The position numbers and the translations under genes were made by a program. A DNA stretch of 64,000 nt, taken from contig CANNEK010000001.1 in NCBI GenBank assembly GCA_947503625.1, positions 62,001 to 126,000 of the forward strand, in the 5' to 3' direction. The notes beneath the pieces are model-generated. The model ran no database searches. It was not told the DNA's origin and saw only the letters and a list, made by a program, of their open reading frames with translations. The first letter of the stretch is position 1. Each line of letters opens with the position of its first letter. This document shows positions 54,893-64,000 of this stretch, piece by piece. The stretch is from an uncultured Kordiimonas sp. (lineage in GTDB: Bacteria; Pseudomonadota; Alphaproteobacteria; Sphingomonadales; Kordiimonadaceae).

Positions 54893-57388
54893 ATGGCAAA
54901 TATTAATGGTACCGCAGGCGACGACACTATCTTCGGCGATGATCCGGGGGCCGATCTACTGCAAGGACTTGACGGCAATGACCGGCTTTTTGGCTTCGGC
55001 GGCAACGATCAGCTTAATGGCAACAATGATAACGATCTGTTGGAAGGCGGCGACGGCAACGATACGCTCGACGGTGGAAACGGTAGTGACACACTCCAGG
55101 GCGATGCTGACAACGACCGGTTGATAGGCGGTACAGGCGACGATGTGCTAACGGGCGGCGCCGGCGGGGACGTGTTTGTCATCGAATCCGGCTCGTCCGA
55201 TGTGATCACCGATTATGATGCTGGCGAAGGCGACAGCCTTGATCTCACCGGCGCCGGAGTTACGCTTTCAAGCGCAGTTTTGAGCGAAGTGGGTGGCAGC
55301 ACGGTTATCGACATTGGTAGCGGCGAAACGCTGACACTTCAGGGGGTTACGCTTGCCGAATTCAACGCTGAACCAACCGTATCGGGCCTCACCAACCGTG
55401 GTGCTGCCGAAGATACGACAGGCGCACTCGACTTCTCGGCTGTCGCCATCGCCGACAGCGATACGCCCGGCAACATCACTGTGACCATTACAGCCACCGA
55501 TACTGGTGCAGTGCTCGGAGCTGTCGATGGTTCTGGTGTCGGGGCAGGGGTAAGTGAAACCGCTGCGGGCAACAATGTGGTGACGCTGGTGGGAACAGCC
55601 GCAGATATTACAACATATCTCGGCAACGCATCCGCCATAACCTACACCTCCAGTCAGGACCGGGAGACAGACGACACAATCTCCATTCAGGCGGATGATG
55701 GTATCAGCACACCGAATGCGGCTAGCACAGCAACAATTGTGATGACACCTCTCAATGATCTTCCAACAGCAAGCAACAGATCGATCATCATGGACAGCAA
55801 TACTGCACGTGTTCTGACCGCTGCTGATTTTAGTTTCTCTGACGTTGACAGTGCCGATAGTCTGACAAGTGTGCGTATTGATACACTGGCGGTGACCAGC
55901 GGCACATTCCAGCTGTCGGGTCTGGATGTGAATGCCTCGGACGTGATTCTGGTGGCCGACATCAATGCTGGCAATCTGGTGTACACACCAGCCGCAGACA
56001 CAGACGGCGATGACCTTTTAACGTTAACCTTCAGCGTCAATGACGGTACTGTCTTTGCAGCCAGTACAAGTGCGCTCGCTATTGATGTTGTAATTCCGGA
56101 ACCACCTGAGCCGGTTAATCAGGCCCCGACTAACTTCGCGATCAGTAACGACACGGTTGATGAAGACACGCCGGGCGCTGTGGTGGGCACACTGTCCGCC
56201 AGCGACAGTGGCAGCCTGACGTTTAAAACAACGGCCGTGACCGATGACCGGTTCGAGGTTGTGGGTAATTTGCTGAAGCTGAAGGACGGTGTCTCTATCA
56301 ACTTTGAAACCGAGACCAGTGTGCAGGTGATTTTGCAGGTTGACGACGAGGACGGGGCAACCACCACCAAAGCCTTCACGATCACGGTTGTTGATATTGA
56401 GGAAAACTCGGCCCCCACCAGCATCAGTCTGAGTGGCAGCACGGTAGCGGAAAACGACGGAGGGGCCAGCATTGGAACCCTGTCTGCAGTTGATGCCGAA
56501 GGCGGTGACATTACCTTCACTGTTTCAGACGACCGGTTTGAAGTGATTGATGGTGTCCTGCAACTGGCGAACGGGGTTACGCTCGACTTCGAAGAGGACC
56601 CGGGCATCGAGCTGACCATTACGGCCACTGATAGCGGCGGGCTCAGCCTGTCGTCCGGGTTTACCATTACCGTGACCGATGTGGACGAGAACGACGCGAG
56701 CGGTGGCTCCGACGATGCTGATACGCTTGATGGCGGGCAGGGCAATGATACGCTGACCGGCGGCGCTGGTGACGATACGGTTGACGGTGGTGAGGGTGAT
56801 GACTTCCTGCGCGGCGACGCAGGCGATGACGCGGTCTCTGGTGGTGAAGGCAATGACACTGTCTTTGCAGGCCCTGGTGATGACGGGGATGATACCATTC
56901 AGGGCAACAGCGGTGATGATGTGCTTGGCGGCGGCGCGGGCGCTGACCTGATTGTTGGCGACGCCAATGATGAATTTCCAGGTAATGACACGATATTTGG
57001 CGGTGCAGGCGAAGACACACTAAACAGTGGTGCTGGCGACGATTTGGTTTTCAATGGTGGCGGCGATGATGTGGTTATCGCCGGCAGCGGGGACGATACT
57101 CTGTGGGCTGGTTCTGGCGATGACCAGCTGTCAGGCGGCGAGGGGAACGATGTATTTGTCTTCGGAGTTTCCAGTGGCAACGATACGATCAGCGACTTCG
57201 CCACCTCTGCTGATATACTTGACTTCAGTTATTCAGTGTTCCGCACGTTCGCAGAAGTGCAGGCCGCTGCGTCTGAAACGACCCGGGGTGATCAGGCAGG
57301 GCTACTCATTGATCTTGGTGATGACCAGAGCGTTTTCCTTGTTGGAATAGGGCTGGATGACCTTTCGACCGATAACCTTGAATTTTGA
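54893..57388 (+). CDS. large RTX calcium-binding protein with cadherin-like repeats
   Basis: 831 residues, acidic. Residues about 3-100 are hemolysin-type calcium nonapeptides (GGDGNDTLDGG, GGTGDDVLTGG). The middle has VCBS/cadherin-like repeats, with two related units at about 405-605 (NDTVDEDTPGAVVGTLSASD and GSTVAENDGGASIGTLSAVD). A second RTX block covers about 610-765 and a typical C-terminal segment ends SVFLVGIGLDDLSTDNLEF. There is no N-terminal signal peptide, fitting type I secretion, but no ABC exporter is nearby. Role: surface adhesin or matrix protein, inferred. Confidence 0.88.
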   Translation: MANINGTAGDDTIFGDDPGADLLQGLDGNDRLFGFGGNDQLNGNNDNDLLEGGDGNDTLDGGNGSDTLQGDADNDRLIGGTGDDVLTGGAGGDVFVIESGSSDVITDYDAGEGDSLDLTGAGVTLSSAVLSEVGGSTVIDIGSGETLTLQGVTLAEFNAEPTVSGLTNRGAAEDTTGALDFSAVAIADSDTPGNITVTITATDTGAVLGAVDGSGVGAGVSETAAGNNVVTLVGTAADITTYLGNASAITYTSSQDRETDDTISIQADDGISTPNAASTATIVMTPLNDLPTASNRSIIMDSNTARVLTAADFSFSDVDSADSLTSVRIDTLAVTSGTFQLSGLDVNASDVILVADINAGNLVYTPAADTDGDDLLTLTFSVNDGTVFAASTSALAIDVVIPEPPEPVNQAPTNFAISNDTVDEDTPGAVVGTLSASDSGSLTFKTTAVTDDRFEVVGNLLKLKDGVSINFETETSVQVILQVDDEDGATTTKAFTITVVDIEENSAPTSISLSGSTVAENDGGASIGTLSAVDAEGGDITFTVSDDRFEVIDGVLQLANGVTLDFEEDPGIELTITATDSGGLSLSSGFTITVTDVDENDASGGSDDADTLDGGQGNDTLTGGAGDDTVDGGEGDDFLRGDAGDDAVSGGEGNDTVFAGPGDDGDDTIQGNSGDDVLGGGAGADLIVGDANDEFPGNDTIFGGAGEDTLNSGAGDDLVFNGGGDDVVIAGSGDDTLWAGSGDDQLSGGEGNDVFVFGVSSGNDTISDFATSADILDFSYSVFRTFAEVQAAASETTRGDQAGLLIDLGDDQSVFLVGIGLDDLSTDNLEF

Positions 57389-57539: not shown

Positions 57540-58532
57540 CTATTCTGTCGAAACAACAATTTTGCCGACCTGGTTCCCTTTCAGCATGTAACGGTATGCT
57601 TCTATGGCCTCGTCGAAACTGAATACACGATCGACTTTTGGCACCAATAGGCCTTTTTCCTGGCGTTCCAGAACGTAGTTAACGCCTCGCATTCGCTGGT
57701 CTTCATGACGAATATGGTTGAACAAGGAATAAGGAAACACGGTTGCGGCTTTACGGACCATTTTTACGATATCAACCTGAGCATGCAGGCCGCGCAAAAC
57801 ACCATAAATGAACACAAGCGCATTTTCTCCAAGAGCTTCAGCATAGTCATCGACGAAATCGCCACCGATGGGATCATACACAACCCGAACACCCGCCCCT
57901 GATGTTGCTTCCATGATACGAGCCGTAAGGTCTTCTTCATCCGTAGCGACCACATAGTCCGCGCCACTGGCAAAGATATCAGCGGTCTTTTTACTCGTTC
58001 GTGTTGTGGCGATGACAGTTGCACCAATATCTTTTGCAAGCGCAATCGCGCCCAGTCCGGCACTGGAGCTTGCCGCCGGTATCAATATGTAATCCTCAGG
58101 TTTCAGCTTCGCCGTCTCGATCAGTGGGTAATAGGCGGTAAGCATTTCCATCCAGGTAGACGTCGCTTCTTCCTTGGATAGCCGGTCTGACCAGGGGGCA
58201 ATGTAGTCCGCGTTGAAAACCGCATGTTGAGCATGAACACCATATGTTGTGTTGGCGTGTGGAATTGTCGCGACACGGTCTCCGACCTTGAAGCCCTGCA
58301 CACCTGCACCAATCGCTTCAATAATGCCCGCTGCTTCCGAACCCAAACCTGATGGAAGGGATGCAACCGAATAGTGGTTGTCTTCCAAATACAGAATGTC
58401 GGCGCGGTTTAAAGCGAACGCTTTCACGTCAATCAGTACCTCGCCCGGACTGGGTTTAGGCCGTTCAATTTCCTCAATGCGCAGTGCGTCGACCCCGCCA
58501 GCTTCGTGAAATTGCAATGCTGTTGTTTTCAT
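57540..58532 (-). CDS. quinone-oxidoreductase-like MDR dehydrogenase
   Basis: 330 residues from ATG 58532, which has GGGGGAC upstream; the frame is open nine codons further. Medium-chain dehydrogenase fold: FALNRADILYLEDN, GLGSEAAGIIEAIGAGVQGFK and a nucleotide-binding part AASSSAGLGAIALAKDIGAT. The catalytic zinc Cys of alcohol dehydrogenases is replaced by Asn (LNRAD), so it belongs with zinc-free quinone oxidoreductases/enoyl reductases and likely uses NADPH. Divergent from the LAL regulator and sharing its motif array. Confidence 0.9.
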   Translation of the reverse strand: MKTTALQFHEAGGVDALRIEEIERPKPSPGEVLIDVKAFALNRADILYLEDNHYSVASLPSGLGSEAAGIIEAIGAGVQGFKVGDRVATIPHANTTYGVHAQHAVFNADYIAPWSDRLSKEEATSTWMEMLTAYYPLIETAKLKPEDYILIPAASSSAGLGAIALAKDIGATVIATTRTSKKTADIFASGADYVVATDEEDLTARIMEATSGAGVRVVYDPIGGDFVDDYAEALGENALVFIYGVLRGLHAQVDIVKMVRKAATVFPYSLFNHIRHEDQRMRGVNYVLERQEKGLLVPKVDRVFSFDEAIEAYRYMLKGNQVGKIVVSTE

Positions 58533-58650
58533 TTCAAGTCCCCCGTAATTCTGTTGCAAGAACGCTGTTTTTCAAAAGAAAGGTCTAAACTTGCTTTCAA
58601 AATCATCATGGATTTAGGCACTGCAAATCATCGAGGGCAACAGATATTAA

Positions 58651-58690
58651 GGGTAGGCATTTTGACCATCTGCCCACCCAAAAGGGTGGG
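58651..58690. promoter_or_regulatory. three-half-site operator array, oxidoreductase/LAL regulator
   Basis: GGGTAGG (58651-58657), 15 nt, CCCACCC (58673-58679), AAAA, GGGTGGG (58684-58690). The last two form the dyad CCACCC-N4-GGGTGG. Seen from the oxidoreductase strand, this has the same order and spacing as the array before the TonB receptor gene. It is 118 nt from the oxidoreductase ATG and 139 nt from the regulator ATG. Confidence 0.65.
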
Positions 58691-58829
58691 TTTAAGCCAT
58701 TTTTCTTCTGTTCCCGTGATATCCGCTTTAAACAGGCAATAGCCAAAGCGAAGAAGGTGTTTCCCAGCGTGTGTCTGGCTAATAAATACTGGAATCCGCA
58801 AATTAGCTGGTATTGATGTGCCCTGATGC

Positions 58830-61541
58830 ATGAAGATACTGTCGGGTCACCGAGTGAGAAAGCTGAGATTTATGCAAGATACGAGCTACTTCGGAAACTG
58901 GTTTATCCCGTCCAAAATAGAGCCCGAGCGGCCCAGTATCAGCCTTGTGGAGCGTCAACGGCTCACCCAAACGCTTTCAGGTTGGCTGGAGAAGAAGCTT
59001 ATTCTTGTTATTGCCCCGGCAGGGTTTGGAAAATCCACGCTGGTCTCTCAGTGGCGGGACTTGCTGCTCGAAGATCAGGTTTTGTGTCCCTGGCTTTCTC
59101 TTGATGAAAACGACTTTGAAGGCCGTCAGTTTCTGTCCTATTTCACGTTGTCTCTGGCGGCGGCGGGCTTTGAACTTGATGAACTTGTTGTAGGCGCGAA
59201 AAACGGTTTTGCCGATTCATCCGAACGCGTCATCCTTCGCCGCCTGATTTCAGAGATCGAGCTGACAGACACGCCGTGCGTTATGGTGCTGGATGACTAT
59301 CACCGGGTTTGCTCGCCAAAAATCGATGCATTGCTAACACAGTTAATCAAGGAAACTCCGCCGTCCTTCACCATTCTGGTAAACAGCCGGGTAATTCCTG
59401 ATATTGATTGTGCAACTTTGATTGCGTCAGGTGCTGCTGTGGAGCTTGGAACGGATGGCCTGCGGCTCACGAAAGAAGAAGCGATGAAAGCCGTTGGAAC
59501 GGCAATCGTCGACAATGATTTTTCAGCCATCTACGAAAAAACGGAAGGATGGCCTGTCGCGGTTCAGCTCGCGCGCTTGGGTAGCGGAAGCTTAAACACT
59601 TTCCCGGTTTCTGCTCCAGGTCATTCCAGCAGTTTTATTGCTTCCTATCTTACTGAACAGGTCGTTAACTCCCTTGAAGAAGAGGCGAAACAGTTTCTGT
59701 TGTCGACGTCAGTCTTCAGTCGCTTCAGTGCAGATCTGCTTAATCATGTATTTGATAGACACGACGCATGGGCGAATATGGCGAAACTCAATCAATTGAG
59801 CGCCTTTATCATTCCGATGGATAAAGAAGGTATTTGGTTCAGGTACCACCATCTTTTTTCAGAATATCTTTTTGAAACTCTCCGCAAAAGCAATTGGGAG
59901 CTTGTTCGCAACCTGTGTTCCCGCGCCAGTGACTGGCATTGGGAAAATGGTCAGCCTGTGGAAGCTGCAAATTACGCAACAAAGATAAAAGACTACCAAC
60001 GATGTGCCGATATTATTCTCGACCTGGGGGGATGGCAGGTCATTGTGACGCGCGGCATCGGGTTTATGAGGAAACTGCTTCGTTTCATACCCGAAGGCGA
60101 ATTGAAAAATTTCCCGCGGGTGGCTCTGGCGAGAACATATTTGCACTGTAAGGACGGTGAACTTCAGCAGGCCAGGTTTCTGTTCGATAGCACCAGTTGG
60201 TCGAACCGTGATTGTCAGGACCCCGAATGGTTGCAGGATCAGCTGTTGGTTGGTCAACTCCTTGCTGTCTATCAGGATATCACGATCGACCAGGAAGAGC
60301 TGGACGGCTACATTGATCGGGCAAAAAGCGGGCTGCCCGGTCTTGATTCGCTGTCCATCGGGACGTTACGATGCATGGAAGTGAACGGTCTGTTTGCCAA
60401 TGCACACATGGAACCGGTTGAGAGCTGCCTTGAGAACGCCTCTCAGTTAATGCGTCAGGGAGGATCGGTACTCGGCCTCAATTATTGCTATGTTCATGCC
60501 TGTGTCGCAGCTCTTTACAGGTGCGATTTCGAGTCAGCAATAACCCATGCAAAAGTCACTTTTGAGGAAGCAGAGAAAAACTTTGGCGCAGATAGCGGCT
60601 TAAAATATATTGCCAATACTCTTCGGTTCGCCATCGCCGTTTGGTCGGGACGAGCGAACGCCAGTGACCTGCAAACATTTGTAGCTTCCTTGACCGACCT
60701 TGAGGAACACGACGGCTGGACAGAAATATATCTGGTTGGACTAGATGCCGGTTATCACTTGGCTGCGAGCTATTCTGATTGGGCAACGGCCTTTTCGATA
60801 GTTGAGCGCTACCAGAGCGTTGCCACCATCAGGGACCTGGCAAGACTGAAGCTCTTTTGTGCCGTCTTGCAATTGGAAGCGGCTCGTCATGTCGGGTATG
60901 AGCATGAGTTGGTCTCCCTTACCAGCAAGGTCGTAAAACTGACCTCTGGCGCCGAGGATTCCGGTAACTGGTTCAGCCGTGCAATCGCCTCTACCAAACT
61001 GCTTAGACTGGGATTGATATCAGGCGAAAAAACCGAGGAATCTCTTTTCGAAAACGTAACCTGGACCAGGCACAGAGGCCTCAATTTTTATCACATTCGA
61101 CTTGTAGCGGCTCAGGCCGAATTTTACCTCACTCAAAGAGACGAGGAAAAACTGGTCGAAAAATTGTCCGCTCTGGTAGAGCTCTGCGCCAGATATGATT
61201 TCTTTTGGCCATTCAAGGCGAATGCTGATTTGAAGATGGCGTTATACAGCCACCGCGACCATCTCGGCAGTTCCAGTGAAGGCGTTAACCGAGCATTTGT
61301 TGACAAGTTTCTTTCGGGCCAATTTGAGAATGACCAGCCAAAAGGACCCGGTATATTAAGCCTGAGAGAGCGGCAGGTTCTGACTTGCCTGTCTGAAGGG
61401 CAGTCTAACAAACTAATTGCGCGGGAACTCGACCTCACTGATAACACGGTTAAATTTCACCTTAAAAATATCTATATGAAACTCTCGGTCAGCCGTCGCG
61501 GCGAAGCGGTATTCGAAGCACGGAGAAGGGGGTTGATCTAA
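58830..61541 (+). CDS. MalT-like LuxR-family ATP-dependent regulator (LAL)
   Basis: 903 residues; ATG 58830 and ATG 58872 are both plausible starts. The NTPase has Walker A APAGFGKST (62-70) and Walker B VMVLDDYH (151-158). A long helical repeat region (about 330-830), as in MalT, would bind the inducer, and a LuxR helix-turn-helix lies at 839-903 (SLRERQVLTCLSEGQSNKLI, DNTVKFHLKNIYMKL). MalT-type proteins activate genes when bound to ATP and a small ligand. Its neighbours all carry the same inverted motif, so it probably controls them and itself. Confidence 0.92.
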   Translation: MKILSGHRVRKLRFMQDTSYFGNWFIPSKIEPERPSISLVERQRLTQTLSGWLEKKLILVIAPAGFGKSTLVSQWRDLLLEDQVLCPWLSLDENDFEGRQFLSYFTLSLAAAGFELDELVVGAKNGFADSSERVILRRLISEIELTDTPCVMVLDDYHRVCSPKIDALLTQLIKETPPSFTILVNSRVIPDIDCATLIASGAAVELGTDGLRLTKEEAMKAVGTAIVDNDFSAIYEKTEGWPVAVQLARLGSGSLNTFPVSAPGHSSSFIASYLTEQVVNSLEEEAKQFLLSTSVFSRFSADLLNHVFDRHDAWANMAKLNQLSAFIIPMDKEGIWFRYHHLFSEYLFETLRKSNWELVRNLCSRASDWHWENGQPVEAANYATKIKDYQRCADIILDLGGWQVIVTRGIGFMRKLLRFIPEGELKNFPRVALARTYLHCKDGELQQARFLFDSTSWSNRDCQDPEWLQDQLLVGQLLAVYQDITIDQEELDGYIDRAKSGLPGLDSLSIGTLRCMEVNGLFANAHMEPVESCLENASQLMRQGGSVLGLNYCYVHACVAALYRCDFESAITHAKVTFEEAEKNFGADSGLKYIANTLRFAIAVWSGRANASDLQTFVASLTDLEEHDGWTEIYLVGLDAGYHLAASYSDWATAFSIVERYQSVATIRDLARLKLFCAVLQLEAARHVGYEHELVSLTSKVVKLTSGAEDSGNWFSRAIASTKLLRLGLISGEKTEESLFENVTWTRHRGLNFYHIRLVAAQAEFYLTQRDEEKLVEKLSALVELCARYDFFWPFKANADLKMALYSHRDHLGSSSEGVNRAFVDKFLSGQFENDQPKGPGILSLRERQVLTCLSEGQSNKLIARELDLTDNTVKFHLKNIYMKLSVSRRGEAVFEARRRGLI

Positions 61542-61559
61542 CTTCCTGCGATCCTCAAC

Positions 61560-61575
61560 CTACCCATGTGGGCAG
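61560..61575. promoter_or_regulatory. LAL-type dyad upstream of cyclophilin gene
   Basis: CTACCC-ATGT-GGGCAG, the same half-sites and 4-nt spacer as at 58674-58689 and 62153-62168. It lies 52 nt before the cyclophilin ATG, in the 86-nt gap after the regulator gene. Confidence 0.6.
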
Positions 61576-61627
61576 CTTACCAACTGAACAAAACCAAGTA
61601 TCTTCAGCGTAACGTAAGGAGATACAT

Positions 61628-62152
61628 ATGCATCCCGCCAATCATACAATTACGGTTACAACGCCTCTCGGGCAGTTCCAGATCATGCTTGACGTAGAAC
61701 GTGCGCCAGCAACCGCTGAATATTTCACACAATTGGCGGACAAGGGTTTACTTGACAACACATCAATCTTCAGGATCGTCAATAGCGAAAACAATAGTTA
61801 CAACCCGGCATGCCCAATCCACGTTATTCAGGGTGGCTTGCCAGAGGGTGGTCGGGTTCTGCTACCAAACATCGTCCACGAGTCCACTCGAATGACAGGG
61901 ATAACCCACAAGAAATGGACTGTTTCCGCGGCCCGGCTGGGGGTAGGGGAAACTTACGGCAGTTTCTTCATCGCGATGCGGGATGAACCGTCCTTGGACT
62001 ATGGCGGCAAGCGCCACCCCGATGGTCAGGGCTTCGCAGCATTCGGCGAGGTGTTGTCGGGGCACAGCGTTTTGGAAAGGATACTTCAGCGCGCTGAACC
62101 CCAAGAGTATCTTCGCGACATAGTGCGCATAATTAAAGTAAAAGTAGAGTAA
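61628..62152 (+). CDS. cyclophilin-type peptidyl-prolyl isomerase
   Basis: 174 residues, one cyclophilin domain: VTTPLGQFQIMLDVERAPAT, TSIFRIVNSE, HVIQGG, YGSFFIAMRDEP and the C-terminal GQGFAAFGEVLSGHSVLERI. There is no signal peptide, so it appears cytoplasmic. The active-site block diverges from the common FHRVI-GFMIQGG pattern, so activity is not assured. Ribosome binding site AAGGAG. It lies between the LAL regulator and a TonB receptor, both linked by the shared dyad. Confidence 0.88.
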   Translation: MHPANHTITVTTPLGQFQIMLDVERAPATAEYFTQLADKGLLDNTSIFRIVNSENNSYNPACPIHVIQGGLPEGGRVLLPNIVHESTRMTGITHKKWTVSAARLGVGETYGSFFIAMRDEPSLDYGGKRHPDGQGFAAFGEVLSGHSVLERILQRAEPQEYLRDIVRIIKVKVE

Positions 62153-62191
62153 CTACCCATTCGGGTAGGGCGAGCCTGCCCCATCCCACCC
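62153..62191. promoter_or_regulatory. three-half-site operator array upstream of TonB receptor gene
   Basis: CTACCC (62153-62158), ATTC, GGGTAGG (62163-62169), 15 nt, CCCACCC (62185-62191), then AAA. This is the mirror of the 58651-58690 array with the same two spacers, 88 nt before the receptor ATG. The dyad touches the cyclophilin stop, but no T-tract follows, so it is unlikely to be a terminator. Confidence 0.65.
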
Positions 62192-62279
62192 AAATTAGAT
62201 TCAAAACTACCCCGATGCGCTGTTGCGACAAACCCATCGCGCACTCAATATTGCAGGAACAAAATCCTTGGAGGGAATA

Positions 62280-64000
62280 ATGAAAAATTACCTGAAAACG
62301 AGTGTAGCGACATGCGCCTTGATTATTGCCGGAGTTAACAACCAGGCTTTTGCGCAAGACGACCAACTAGGCGATGATGAATTCGCGCTTGAAGAGATTG
62401 TGGTCACCGCGCGCGGCCGCGAAGAGACACTGCAGTCAGCGCCGCTGTCGGTTTCAGTCCTTAGCAAACAAACGATTGAAGATGCCAGGGTCAACCGCGT
62501 GGACGACTTTATTGCATTAACCTCGGGTATCACGATCGCGAACTCACAGGACGCCGGGACAAACTTCATAACCATTCGTGGCATGTCGCAAACCAGAAAT
62601 GGAGAACCACCTGTCGCTGTGGTTGTCGACGGCGTATTACAGGTAAATTCGAGAACCTTTGATCAGACCTTGTTTGACGTTGAAAACATTCAGGTTCTCA
62701 GGGGCCCACAAGGCGCAAGATATGGCCGGAACGCCACAGGTGGTGCCATTATCATCAACACAGTTGGGCCATCCGAGGATTTTGAAGGGTACGTGCGGGC
62801 CGGTATTGGTCGCGGTGAAGAATATAGCTTCGAAGGCTCTATTTCAGGCCCTATTGCTGAAGATACCTTGTCCTATCGCCTGTCGGCAAGCTACACCAAC
62901 CGCGACGGTGTTTTCGAAAACTTCGTGCTTGACGAAAATGTCGACTATTTTGAAGACGTCACCGTACGCGGGCACTTGCGCTGGACACCGACCTCCAACT
63001 TTTCTGCCGATGCAAGGGTGAATATTATCAGGACCGATGCCGGCTCGCTGAATTTCTCCTACCAGGCAGCCATTGTTGACCCTGTAACCGGCCTCCCCAG
63101 TTTTGATTTTACCATTGCCGACGCAGACCTCGTTGAGCGTAATTTTTCCGCCAATAACCTTGGACTTGACGGCAGGGATGTCACTCAATTCTCGCTTCGG
63201 ATGAATTATCAGGCTGGTTGGGGTGAGTTTTCATCGGTGACGAGTTATGACAACATTACGCAAAGTACCGGAAGTGATCAGTTCCCATACACAGCCGCCA
63301 CCAGTGTTACCTTTGGTGCGTTCCCGTTTTTCGACGGAACCCAGTCGCAATTCTTCGATATTGAGGCCTTCAGTCAGGAGTTTAGGTTCACCTCCAATAG
63401 CGACCAGCGCCTTCGCTGGATGGCAGGTGGCTACCTGCTGCTGACGGATCGTTTCGTATCGTCGTCTATTGCAAATGATCTGGGGCAGGGGCTGACAAGA
63501 GTAAGGCGTGACCCCATATCTCCGGCATCCAGCCCACTGACCTCTTTCATTGCTGATGACAATGACAACACGGCCTATGCATTTTTCTTCGCTTTGGATT
63601 ATGACATAGTTGAAAATCTGGAGCTTTCTTTTGCCGGTAGATATGACCGCGATGAACGCAAGCAGACTGTGTCACCGGACCAGGGATTGTATGCTGATGG
63701 CGCTGTGATTGCACCGGTAGGATCCGCAGGTGCCGTCAATCGTGCGAACTTTGACAAGTTTCAGCCTAAAGTGAGCTTGCGATACCTCGCCAGCGATGAC
63801 TTCTCACTATACGCCTCTTGGGGTCAGGGCTTCAGAAGCGGTCAGTTCAACCAAAATGGTGTTGGTGCAATCGCTGCCGGTGCCGGCGTTAACGGTGTAA
63901 CGGATCTGCTAGGAAAAGAAACAACCGAGACCTTTGAAGCAGGCTGGAAATCCTCTTTTCTGGATAATCGCATATCACTGAATGGTGCCCTCTATCATAC
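62280..64000 (+). CDS. TonB-dependent outer-membrane receptor (cut by window end)
   Basis: The frame is open from ATG 62280 (TTGGAGGG upstream) to the end of the window, 573 codons with no stop. Signal peptide of about 26 residues ending NQAFAQ. A TonB-box-like segment (EEIVVTARGREE) and plug domain follow: PLSVSVLSKQTIEDA, ITIRGMSQTRNGEPP, VDGVLQV, NIQVLRGPQGARYGRNATGG, then barrel strands. Such receptors import siderophores, vitamins, sugars or hydrophobic compounds; the plug sequence resembles the sphingomonad-type catabolic TonB receptors. Substrate unknown. The C-terminus lies outside. Confidence 0.93.
   Translation, partial: MKNYLKTSVATCALIIAGVNNQAFAQDDQLGDDEFALEEIVVTARGREETLQSAPLSVSVLSKQTIEDARVNRVDDFIALTSGITIANSQDAGTNFITIRGMSQTRNGEPPVAVVVDGVLQVNSRTFDQTLFDVENIQVLRGPQGARYGRNATGGAIIINTVGPSEDFEGYVRAGIGRGEEYSFEGSISGPIAEDTLSYRLSASYTNRDGVFENFVLDENVDYFEDVTVRGHLRWTPTSNFSADARVNIIRTDAGSLNFSYQAAIVDPVTGLPSFDFTIADADLVERNFSANNLGLDGRDVTQFSLRMNYQAGWGEFSSVTSYDNITQSTGSDQFPYTAATSVTFGAFPFFDGTQSQFFDIEAFSQEFRFTSNSDQRLRWMAGGYLLLTDRFVSSSIANDLGQGLTRVRRDPISPASSPLTSFIADDNDNTAYAFFFALDYDIVENLELSFAGRYDRDERKQTVSPDQGLYADGAVIAPVGSAGAVNRANFDKFQPKVSLRYLASDDFSLYASWGQGFRSGQFNQNGVGAIAAGAGVNGVTDLLGKETTETFEAGWKSSFLDNRISLNGALYH

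Follow-up and report, generated by a model that had tools for sequence, protein, structure and literature searches.

Inverted 6-4-6 dyads as putative operators of a MalT-type LAL regulator at a TonB receptor locus of Kordiimonas

MalT of Escherichia coli is a STAND-architecture activator of uptake and catabolism genes that, in the available text of its descriptions, multimerises on several boxes per promoter (PMC4381067, PMC10427625), the box being given as GGA[TG]GA in the accessible part of PMC9628970. NarL and NarP carry the recognition helix TVKxHxK, bind as dimers to an inverted repeat in a 7-2-7 arrangement and, in the excerpted text, read the heptamer TACYYMT (PMC4886647). The PAS-LuxR regulators of PimM type bind CTVGGGAWWTCCCBAG, a 16-bp palindrome of 6-4-6 layout in the -35 region (PMC9774167, in part), and SCO6993, an LAL of Streptomyces, is reported as a negative regulator with short palindromes near promoters, for which, according to the available portion of its report, no binding-site consensus could be predicted. 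Here we describe an LAL locus in a 64,000-nucleotide stretch of an uncultured Kordiimonas sp. (GenBank assembly GCA_947503625.1, contig CANNEK010000001.1, positions 62,001 to 126,000 of the forward strand; the window), in which each of the three consecutive intergenic regions (IG1 to IG3) around the LAL gene, lying before oxidoreductase, cyclophilin and TonB receptor genes respectively, contains a dyad of the form CYACCC-N4-GGGYRG that is a putative binding site of the LAL protein.

The regulator shares the STAND architecture of MalT and the probable use of several boxes per promoter. Its NOD region matches the MalT structure 8bob with E 6.9e-40 across residues 25-435 and includes the Walker A sequence GFGKST, with a Pfam AAA_16 match below cut-off; a family profile (A2) matches the MalT sensor 1hz4 (E 1.2e-9), and the LAL protein searched singly matches neither a TPR family of Pfam nor, at 1e-5, 1hz4. 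The C-terminal LuxR/GerE helix-turn-helix (HTH) domain is recognised by PF00196 (E 1.7e-17) and has NarL as its structure match. The protein scores 289.1 bits against the NCBIfam MalT equivalog, below the cut-off of 537.

The sites are as follows:
58674..58689, no strand assigned: operator dyad 1, CCACCC-AAAA-GGGTGG, in IG1
61560..61575, no strand assigned: operator dyad 2, CTACCC-ATGT-GGGCAG, in IG2
62153..62168, no strand assigned: operator dyad 3, CTACCC-ATTC-GGGTAG, in IG3
58651..58656, minus strand: promoter-proximal half-site CTACCC (AAGGGTAG on the plus strand), in IG1
62186..62191, plus strand: third half-site CCACCC of the TonB promoter, in IG3
62207..62212, plus strand: promoter-proximal half-site CTACCC, in IG3

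The three dyads, one per intergenic region, were described in a first-pass annotation of the sequence with exact coordinates; the three single half-sites had been missed. The last of these also begins a degenerate dyad with two mismatches (62207-62222). The first-pass annotation had likened the sites to the short G-rich boxes of MalT, an analogy that is loose: because the MalT box is reported as GGA[TG]GA, a motif too short to be informative here and different from an inverted 6-4-6 dyad, the operator is better compared to NarL half-sites in a tighter layout. The TACCC half-site fits the NarL heptamer as given in the available text, dyads 2 and 3 having TACCCAT as their left half, although the halves stand 2 bp closer (TACCC-N4-GGGTA rather than TACYY-N6-RRGTA) and NarL, unlike the LAL protein, is a phosphorylated response regulator. 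The PimM-type palindrome has the same 16-bp 6-4-6 form and a LuxR-type regulator, but its half-site sequence differs and its regulator has a PAS sensor rather than a STAND core. The best reading is that the regulator is an inducer-activated, MalT-type LAL whose LuxR-type domains would read NarL-like TACCC half-sites. The titles and abstract starts listed from open-access PubMed Central gave no description of this regulator-site pair, the subscription literature lying outside that search.

Exact sites are rare in the genome. In 4,074,174 bases on 11 contigs, CYACCC-N4-GGGYRG occurs at seven places (10 strand-hits, against 6 for the reversed pattern used as control), comprising the three intergenic sites of the locus and four within open reading frames (ORFs) of at least 80 aa; two of these four are soft, one (L004) lying 29 bases into the longest ORF and the other (L006) in an ORF of just 156 aa. 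The genome scans and the intergenic placement of the exact sites lead us to reject a chance origin. Allowing one mismatch gives 118 strand-hits against 109 for the reversed-pattern control, which is no surplus across the genome, so the regulon appears local and a wide one is rejected. The genome encodes 49 TonB plug domains, and only the receptor of this locus has an exact intergenic dyad; it has one full-length LAL match. The regulon proposed earlier is private in that no exact intergenic site of this genome lies outside the LAL locus; it is not private in form, the same 6-4-6 dyad with base 6 changed being present at many other LALs (see below).

Neither random occurrence across the genome nor a lack of conservation, the two outcomes named in the first-pass annotation as refuting the proposal, was observed, and the dyads recur in relatives. 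An orthologous LAL is present in five of the 28 other genomes searched within the family, the loci coming from Kordiimonas and a Sphingomonadales metagenome-assembled genome; identities are 87% (G025/L024), 84% (G009/L025), 64% (G022/L063), 63% (G013/L064) and, for a protein in two pieces, 69 and 59% (G016/L065). The last gene (L026/L065) is split into two overlapping frames of 469 and 442 aa, reflecting a sequencing error or a broken gene. With the window included in the counts, dyad 3 is exact in 6/6 loci, dyad 2 in 5/6 with one mismatch in the sixth, and dyad 1 in 2/5 with one mismatch in the other three, the sixth locus (L064) having no oxidoreductase at that position. The single half-sites are also kept: AAGGGTAG beside dyad 1 in all five loci, the third TonB half-site as CCACCC in five of six (CCATCC in L064), and the CTAC of the promoter-proximal TonB half-site in all six. 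Across the genomes of 13 relatives the pattern as a whole is at background (81 strand-hits against 92 in the control), and its clustering at the LAL locus is all that stands out.

The LAL protein, used alone as query against 385 genomes of the class, recovered no orthologous locus, the matches at threshold having only 27-28% identity. A locus in another family of the order (L141) has the gene order oxidoreductase, LAL, cyclophilin, TonB receptor and hydantoinase A, the LAL and cyclophilin genes being almost contiguous. CCACCC-N4-GGGTAG precedes its TonB gene, and TTACCC-N4-GGGTAG is found close to the start of the oxidoreductase gene; this second dyad falls within the longest ORF of that gene, which probably begins upstream of the true start. 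In G013, another LAL beside hydantoinase genes (L070) has a dyad upstream, and a TonB receptor gene (L186:6359), some 10 kb away from the LAL gene and 13 kb from the dyad of that LAL, is preceded at 97 bp by CCACCC-N4-GGGTGG, as expected if the regulatory logic repeats.

The half-sites stand at a fixed distance from promoter-like elements, predicted as follows:
58635..58640, minus strand: inferred -35 of the oxidoreductase promoter, TTGCCC, with TTGC 16 bp after the CTAC start in 5/5 loci
58612..58617, minus strand: weak -10 of the same promoter, CTAAAT, 17 bp from the -35
61576..61581, plus strand: weak -35 position, CTTACC, abutting dyad 2 and 16 bp from the CTAC start (alignment read by eye)
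61599..61604, plus strand: -10 of the cyclophilin promoter, TATCTT, 17 bp from the -35 position, with TA-starting hexamers in six loci (by eye)
62223..62228, plus strand: -35 of the TonB receptor promoter, TTGCGA, with TTGC in 6/6 loci
62246..62251, plus strand: -10 of the TonB receptor promoter, CAATAT, 17 bp from the -35

In all 11 oxidoreductase and TonB promoters the offset from the start of CTAC to TTGC is exactly 16 bp, and this equality is informative because neither promoter is a homologue of the other. All six TonB promoters have a CANNAT hexamer at 17 bp (CAATAT twice, CACTAT twice, CACAAT and CATAAT). At the cyclophilin promoter, dyad 2 itself fills the place taken elsewhere by the promoter-proximal half-site, as judged by eye. 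The combination CTACCC-N10-TTGC occurs seven times in the genome, twice at this locus and five times in ORFs.

Similar dyads are found at LAL genes well beyond the orthologous loci. LAL genes were gathered with a 17-row alignment, and 78 further stretches brought the set, which is part of the matches listed, to 95 loci with 94 LAL-size HTH proteins. In an unrestricted search of their intergenic DNA for 6-Nn-6 palindromes (n from 0 to 12), a spacer of 4 yields CCACCC (7 loci), CTACCC (4), CTACTA (3) and CATAAT (3); the other spacers give no related set of half-sites, with at most four loci per half-site. Palindromes overall are in excess at spacers of 3 or more, as expected of hairpins. At the 89 non-orthologous loci, intergenic YACCC-N4-GGGTR occurs 13 times against 0.6 in shuffles, and TACYA-N4-TRGTA 8 times against 0.3, with one and no occurrences respectively in 984 kb of coding DNA. 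The general form of the dyad is present 46 times against 4.0 (maximum 7 in 20 shuffles) at 33 of the 95 loci, 10 of the 46 coming from the six orthologous loci; coding DNA has 26 in 1.07 Mb. A hold-out set of 21 fresh LAL loci contains seven against 0.5 (maximum 3 in 50 shuffles), the peak being at spacer 4 and all other spacers giving two or fewer. The LAL is the gene common to dyad-bearing loci whose partner genes differ; LALs lacking a TonB match within 13 kb (L164-L166, L169) have dyads too. An operator class of this kind appears to be common to many LALs, with sister regulators using altered versions of the dyad. The longer-spaced YACCC-N8-GGGTR (5 against 0.2) and TACYA-N7-TRGTA (5 against 0.0) are over-represented at the 89 loci as well, and may be operators of other LAL subgroups.

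The promoter spacing recurs in the same set. A CTACY-to-TTG offset of 16 with NAnnnT at 17 bp is the main peak over the 95 loci, at 21 against 0.3 in shuffles, a count that includes the near-identical loci L108-L110, L119-L121 and L133-L134; 15 (against 0.6) remain without orthologs and 10 (against 0.6) outside a 17-member clade. A second, smaller peak lies at offset 36 (7 against 0.3).

The sixth base of the half-site varies with the regulator. Where the recognition helix of the LAL has Lys (TVK-x-H), 25 of 29 dyads have C at this position in both halves, and where it has Arg, none of 11 do; 10 of the 29 are from the six orthologous loci, and the Fisher p of 5.9e-7 overstates the effect because the dyad-bearing Arg LALs form one clade. 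The counts leave out L068, which has two LALs, and L148, where no LAL with an HTH was recovered. Exceptions among Lys loci are L069 (GC), L070 (one AA and one CG beside a CC) and L130 (CT), and among Arg loci L074 (CG) and two TA; loci with VAWH belong to neither class (AA twice, CC once, AC once). Members of the Arg clade that have no such dyad include L111, L112, L114, L116, L125, L071 and L110. In the hold-out, five of the six dyads at Lys loci with a single LAL have CC (TG in L210; L202, with two LALs, left out), and the single-LAL Arg loci L199 and L200 have no dyad and so give no Arg data point. The variable residue, Lys875 in the LAL of the window when counted from 58830, aligns with the Lys of TVKVHVK in NarL, which we take to be Lys188, contacting bases. 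As a hypothesis, the Lys/Arg relationship would represent at best one event and not an established independent code.

A broader generalisation is plausible, and short of probable: that a wide family of alphaproteobacterial LALs, many encoded next to a TonB receptor and a hydantoinase or DUF917 gene, uses a common grammar of inverted YYACYN sites in 6-4-6 layout, that some members also have CTACY 16 bp from the -35, and that one Lys/Arg position sets base 6 (C for Lys, mostly A for Arg). If so, the targets of uncharacterised LALs would be readable from sequence. A dyad that sequence searches can find, taken together with its promoter phasing and a residue that may set specificity, would open the targets of many TonB/hydantoinase uptake loci to direct tests, and in time their inducers too.

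For the locus in the window we think it likely that the dyads are binding sites of LAL dimers that activate the oxidoreductase, cyclophilin and TonB promoters. Conservation in relatives and the fixed distance to promoter-like elements make them probable LAL switches of a small gene cluster for nutrient uptake, consistent with the operator role first proposed for them, and the geometry of the CTAC-TTGC offset points to activation. In such a scheme, dimers of the LuxR/GerE-type domain of the adjacent LAL would bind the three dyads. An inducer, perhaps derived from the substrate of the TonB receptor, would bind the sensor domain, and the LAL would open, take its ATP-bound form and, by homology with MalT, multimerise. 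The multimer would then fill the dyad and the extra half-sites, including the CTACCC beside the -35, and recruit RNA polymerase to the three promoters, that of the divergent oxidoreductase gene and those of the cyclophilin and TonB receptor genes. Hydantoinase A/B and amidohydrolase genes lie downstream of the receptor, and the hydantoinase genes are presumably co-transcribed with it.

Several observations weigh against this reading. At the oxidoreductase promoter, where the five loci have CTAAAT, GTAAAT, GAAAAT, GTAAGT and GTAAGT, an NAnnnT hexamer at 17 bp is present in only one of five; the spacing there may be 18 bp, giving TAAATC or TAAGTC in four loci. IG2 lacks a proper -35, with no TTG in five of six loci (L064 has CTTGTT), and a generic sigma-70 promoter scan of the region shows no surplus (4 against 3.4). 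The promoter spacing barely repeats in the hold-out (1 against 0.05), and that single case (L201) resembles earlier loci; because of this and the near-identical loci, the 16-bp spacing can be taken as firm in the Kordiimonas-type clade and in some of its sisters, not in LALs as a whole. Shuffle controls treat related loci, several of them near-identical, as independent, and 62 of the 95 LAL loci have no dyad of the general form. Look-alike dyads outside ORFs with no LAL nearby are found in G011 (L093, L080) and G012 (L189), and at an ORF edge in G010 (L188). Only L093 is explained: this perfect CTACCC-N4-GGGTAG (G011:C22:419753) is the stem of an intrinsic terminator after an ndk gene, in a genome with no LAL match at the search threshold.

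The dyads could instead be bound by another regulator, such as a NarL/FixJ-type response regulator coded elsewhere, with the LAL gene a mere neighbour. The half-site fits TACYYMT, as that heptamer appears in the available NarL text, and the genome encodes further LuxR-type HTH proteins (HTH-only matches). We regard this as improbable, given that exact intergenic sites are limited to the LAL locus, that the dyad class tracks LAL genes across several families with differing partners, that base 6 varies with the recognition helix of the LAL itself, and that the spacing is unlike the 7-2-7 of NarL. It is similarly unlikely that the LAL represses these promoters through the dyads when substrate is absent: although repressors typically act on inverted repeats near promoters and the LAL-type SCO6993 is described, in the portion of its report available, as a negative regulator on palindromes, the boxes here lie upstream of the inferred -35 and leave the region from -35 to +1 uncovered, the 16-bp phasing suits polymerase contact, and MalT itself is an activator in the parts of its literature cited above.

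A role as RNA hairpins acting in termination, processing or stability has the least probability and is very hard to credit. A 6-bp stem capped by a tetraloop can be drawn for each dyad (in dyad 2 with a single mispair), dyads 2 and 3 are close behind stop codons, and the look-alike in G011 is truly a terminator; against this, dyad 1 sits between divergent genes, conservation extends to the additional half-sites, which are unpaired, and the dyads precede the inferred promoters. A terminator reading is rejected for the three sites, which have neither a terminator call nor the T-run of the ndk look-alike, as is a known RNA family, there being no Rfam match.

The genes of the locus are:
57540..58532, minus strand: zinc-type/quinone oxidoreductase (MDR family), the divergent target gene (ORF; ADH_N/ADH_zinc_N, with a PIG3 quinone oxidoreductase match below cut-off)
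58872..61541, plus strand: LAL / MalT-type STAND activator with GerE HTH (conserved start MQD; the ORF can open at 58830)
61628..62152, plus strand: cyclophilin-type peptidyl-prolyl isomerase (Pro_isomerase domain)
62280..64000, running past the window end, plus strand: TonB-dependent receptor (Plug and beta-barrel domains)

Downstream of the TonB receptor gene, L007 contains genes for HyuA, HyuB and an amidohydrolase, and a reasonable guess is that the locus serves the uptake and ring-opening of a cyclic amide-like compound. Within the fetched stretches a TonB receptor is present at 67 of the 95 LAL loci and at 15 of the 21 hold-out loci, and a hydantoinase A or DUF917 gene at 50 of the 95. 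A cyclophilin-like gene is found at 7 of the 95 loci and at two of the 21 hold-out loci (L203 and L204, from another family), where it lies between the TonB receptor and hydantoinase A genes. The cyclophilin of the window (61628-62152) is divergent and, by eye, has no obvious signal peptide. Adjoining the oxidoreductase gene is an 831-aa ORF (54893-57388) with many glycine-aspartate repeats, by eye of the calcium-binding RTX kind.

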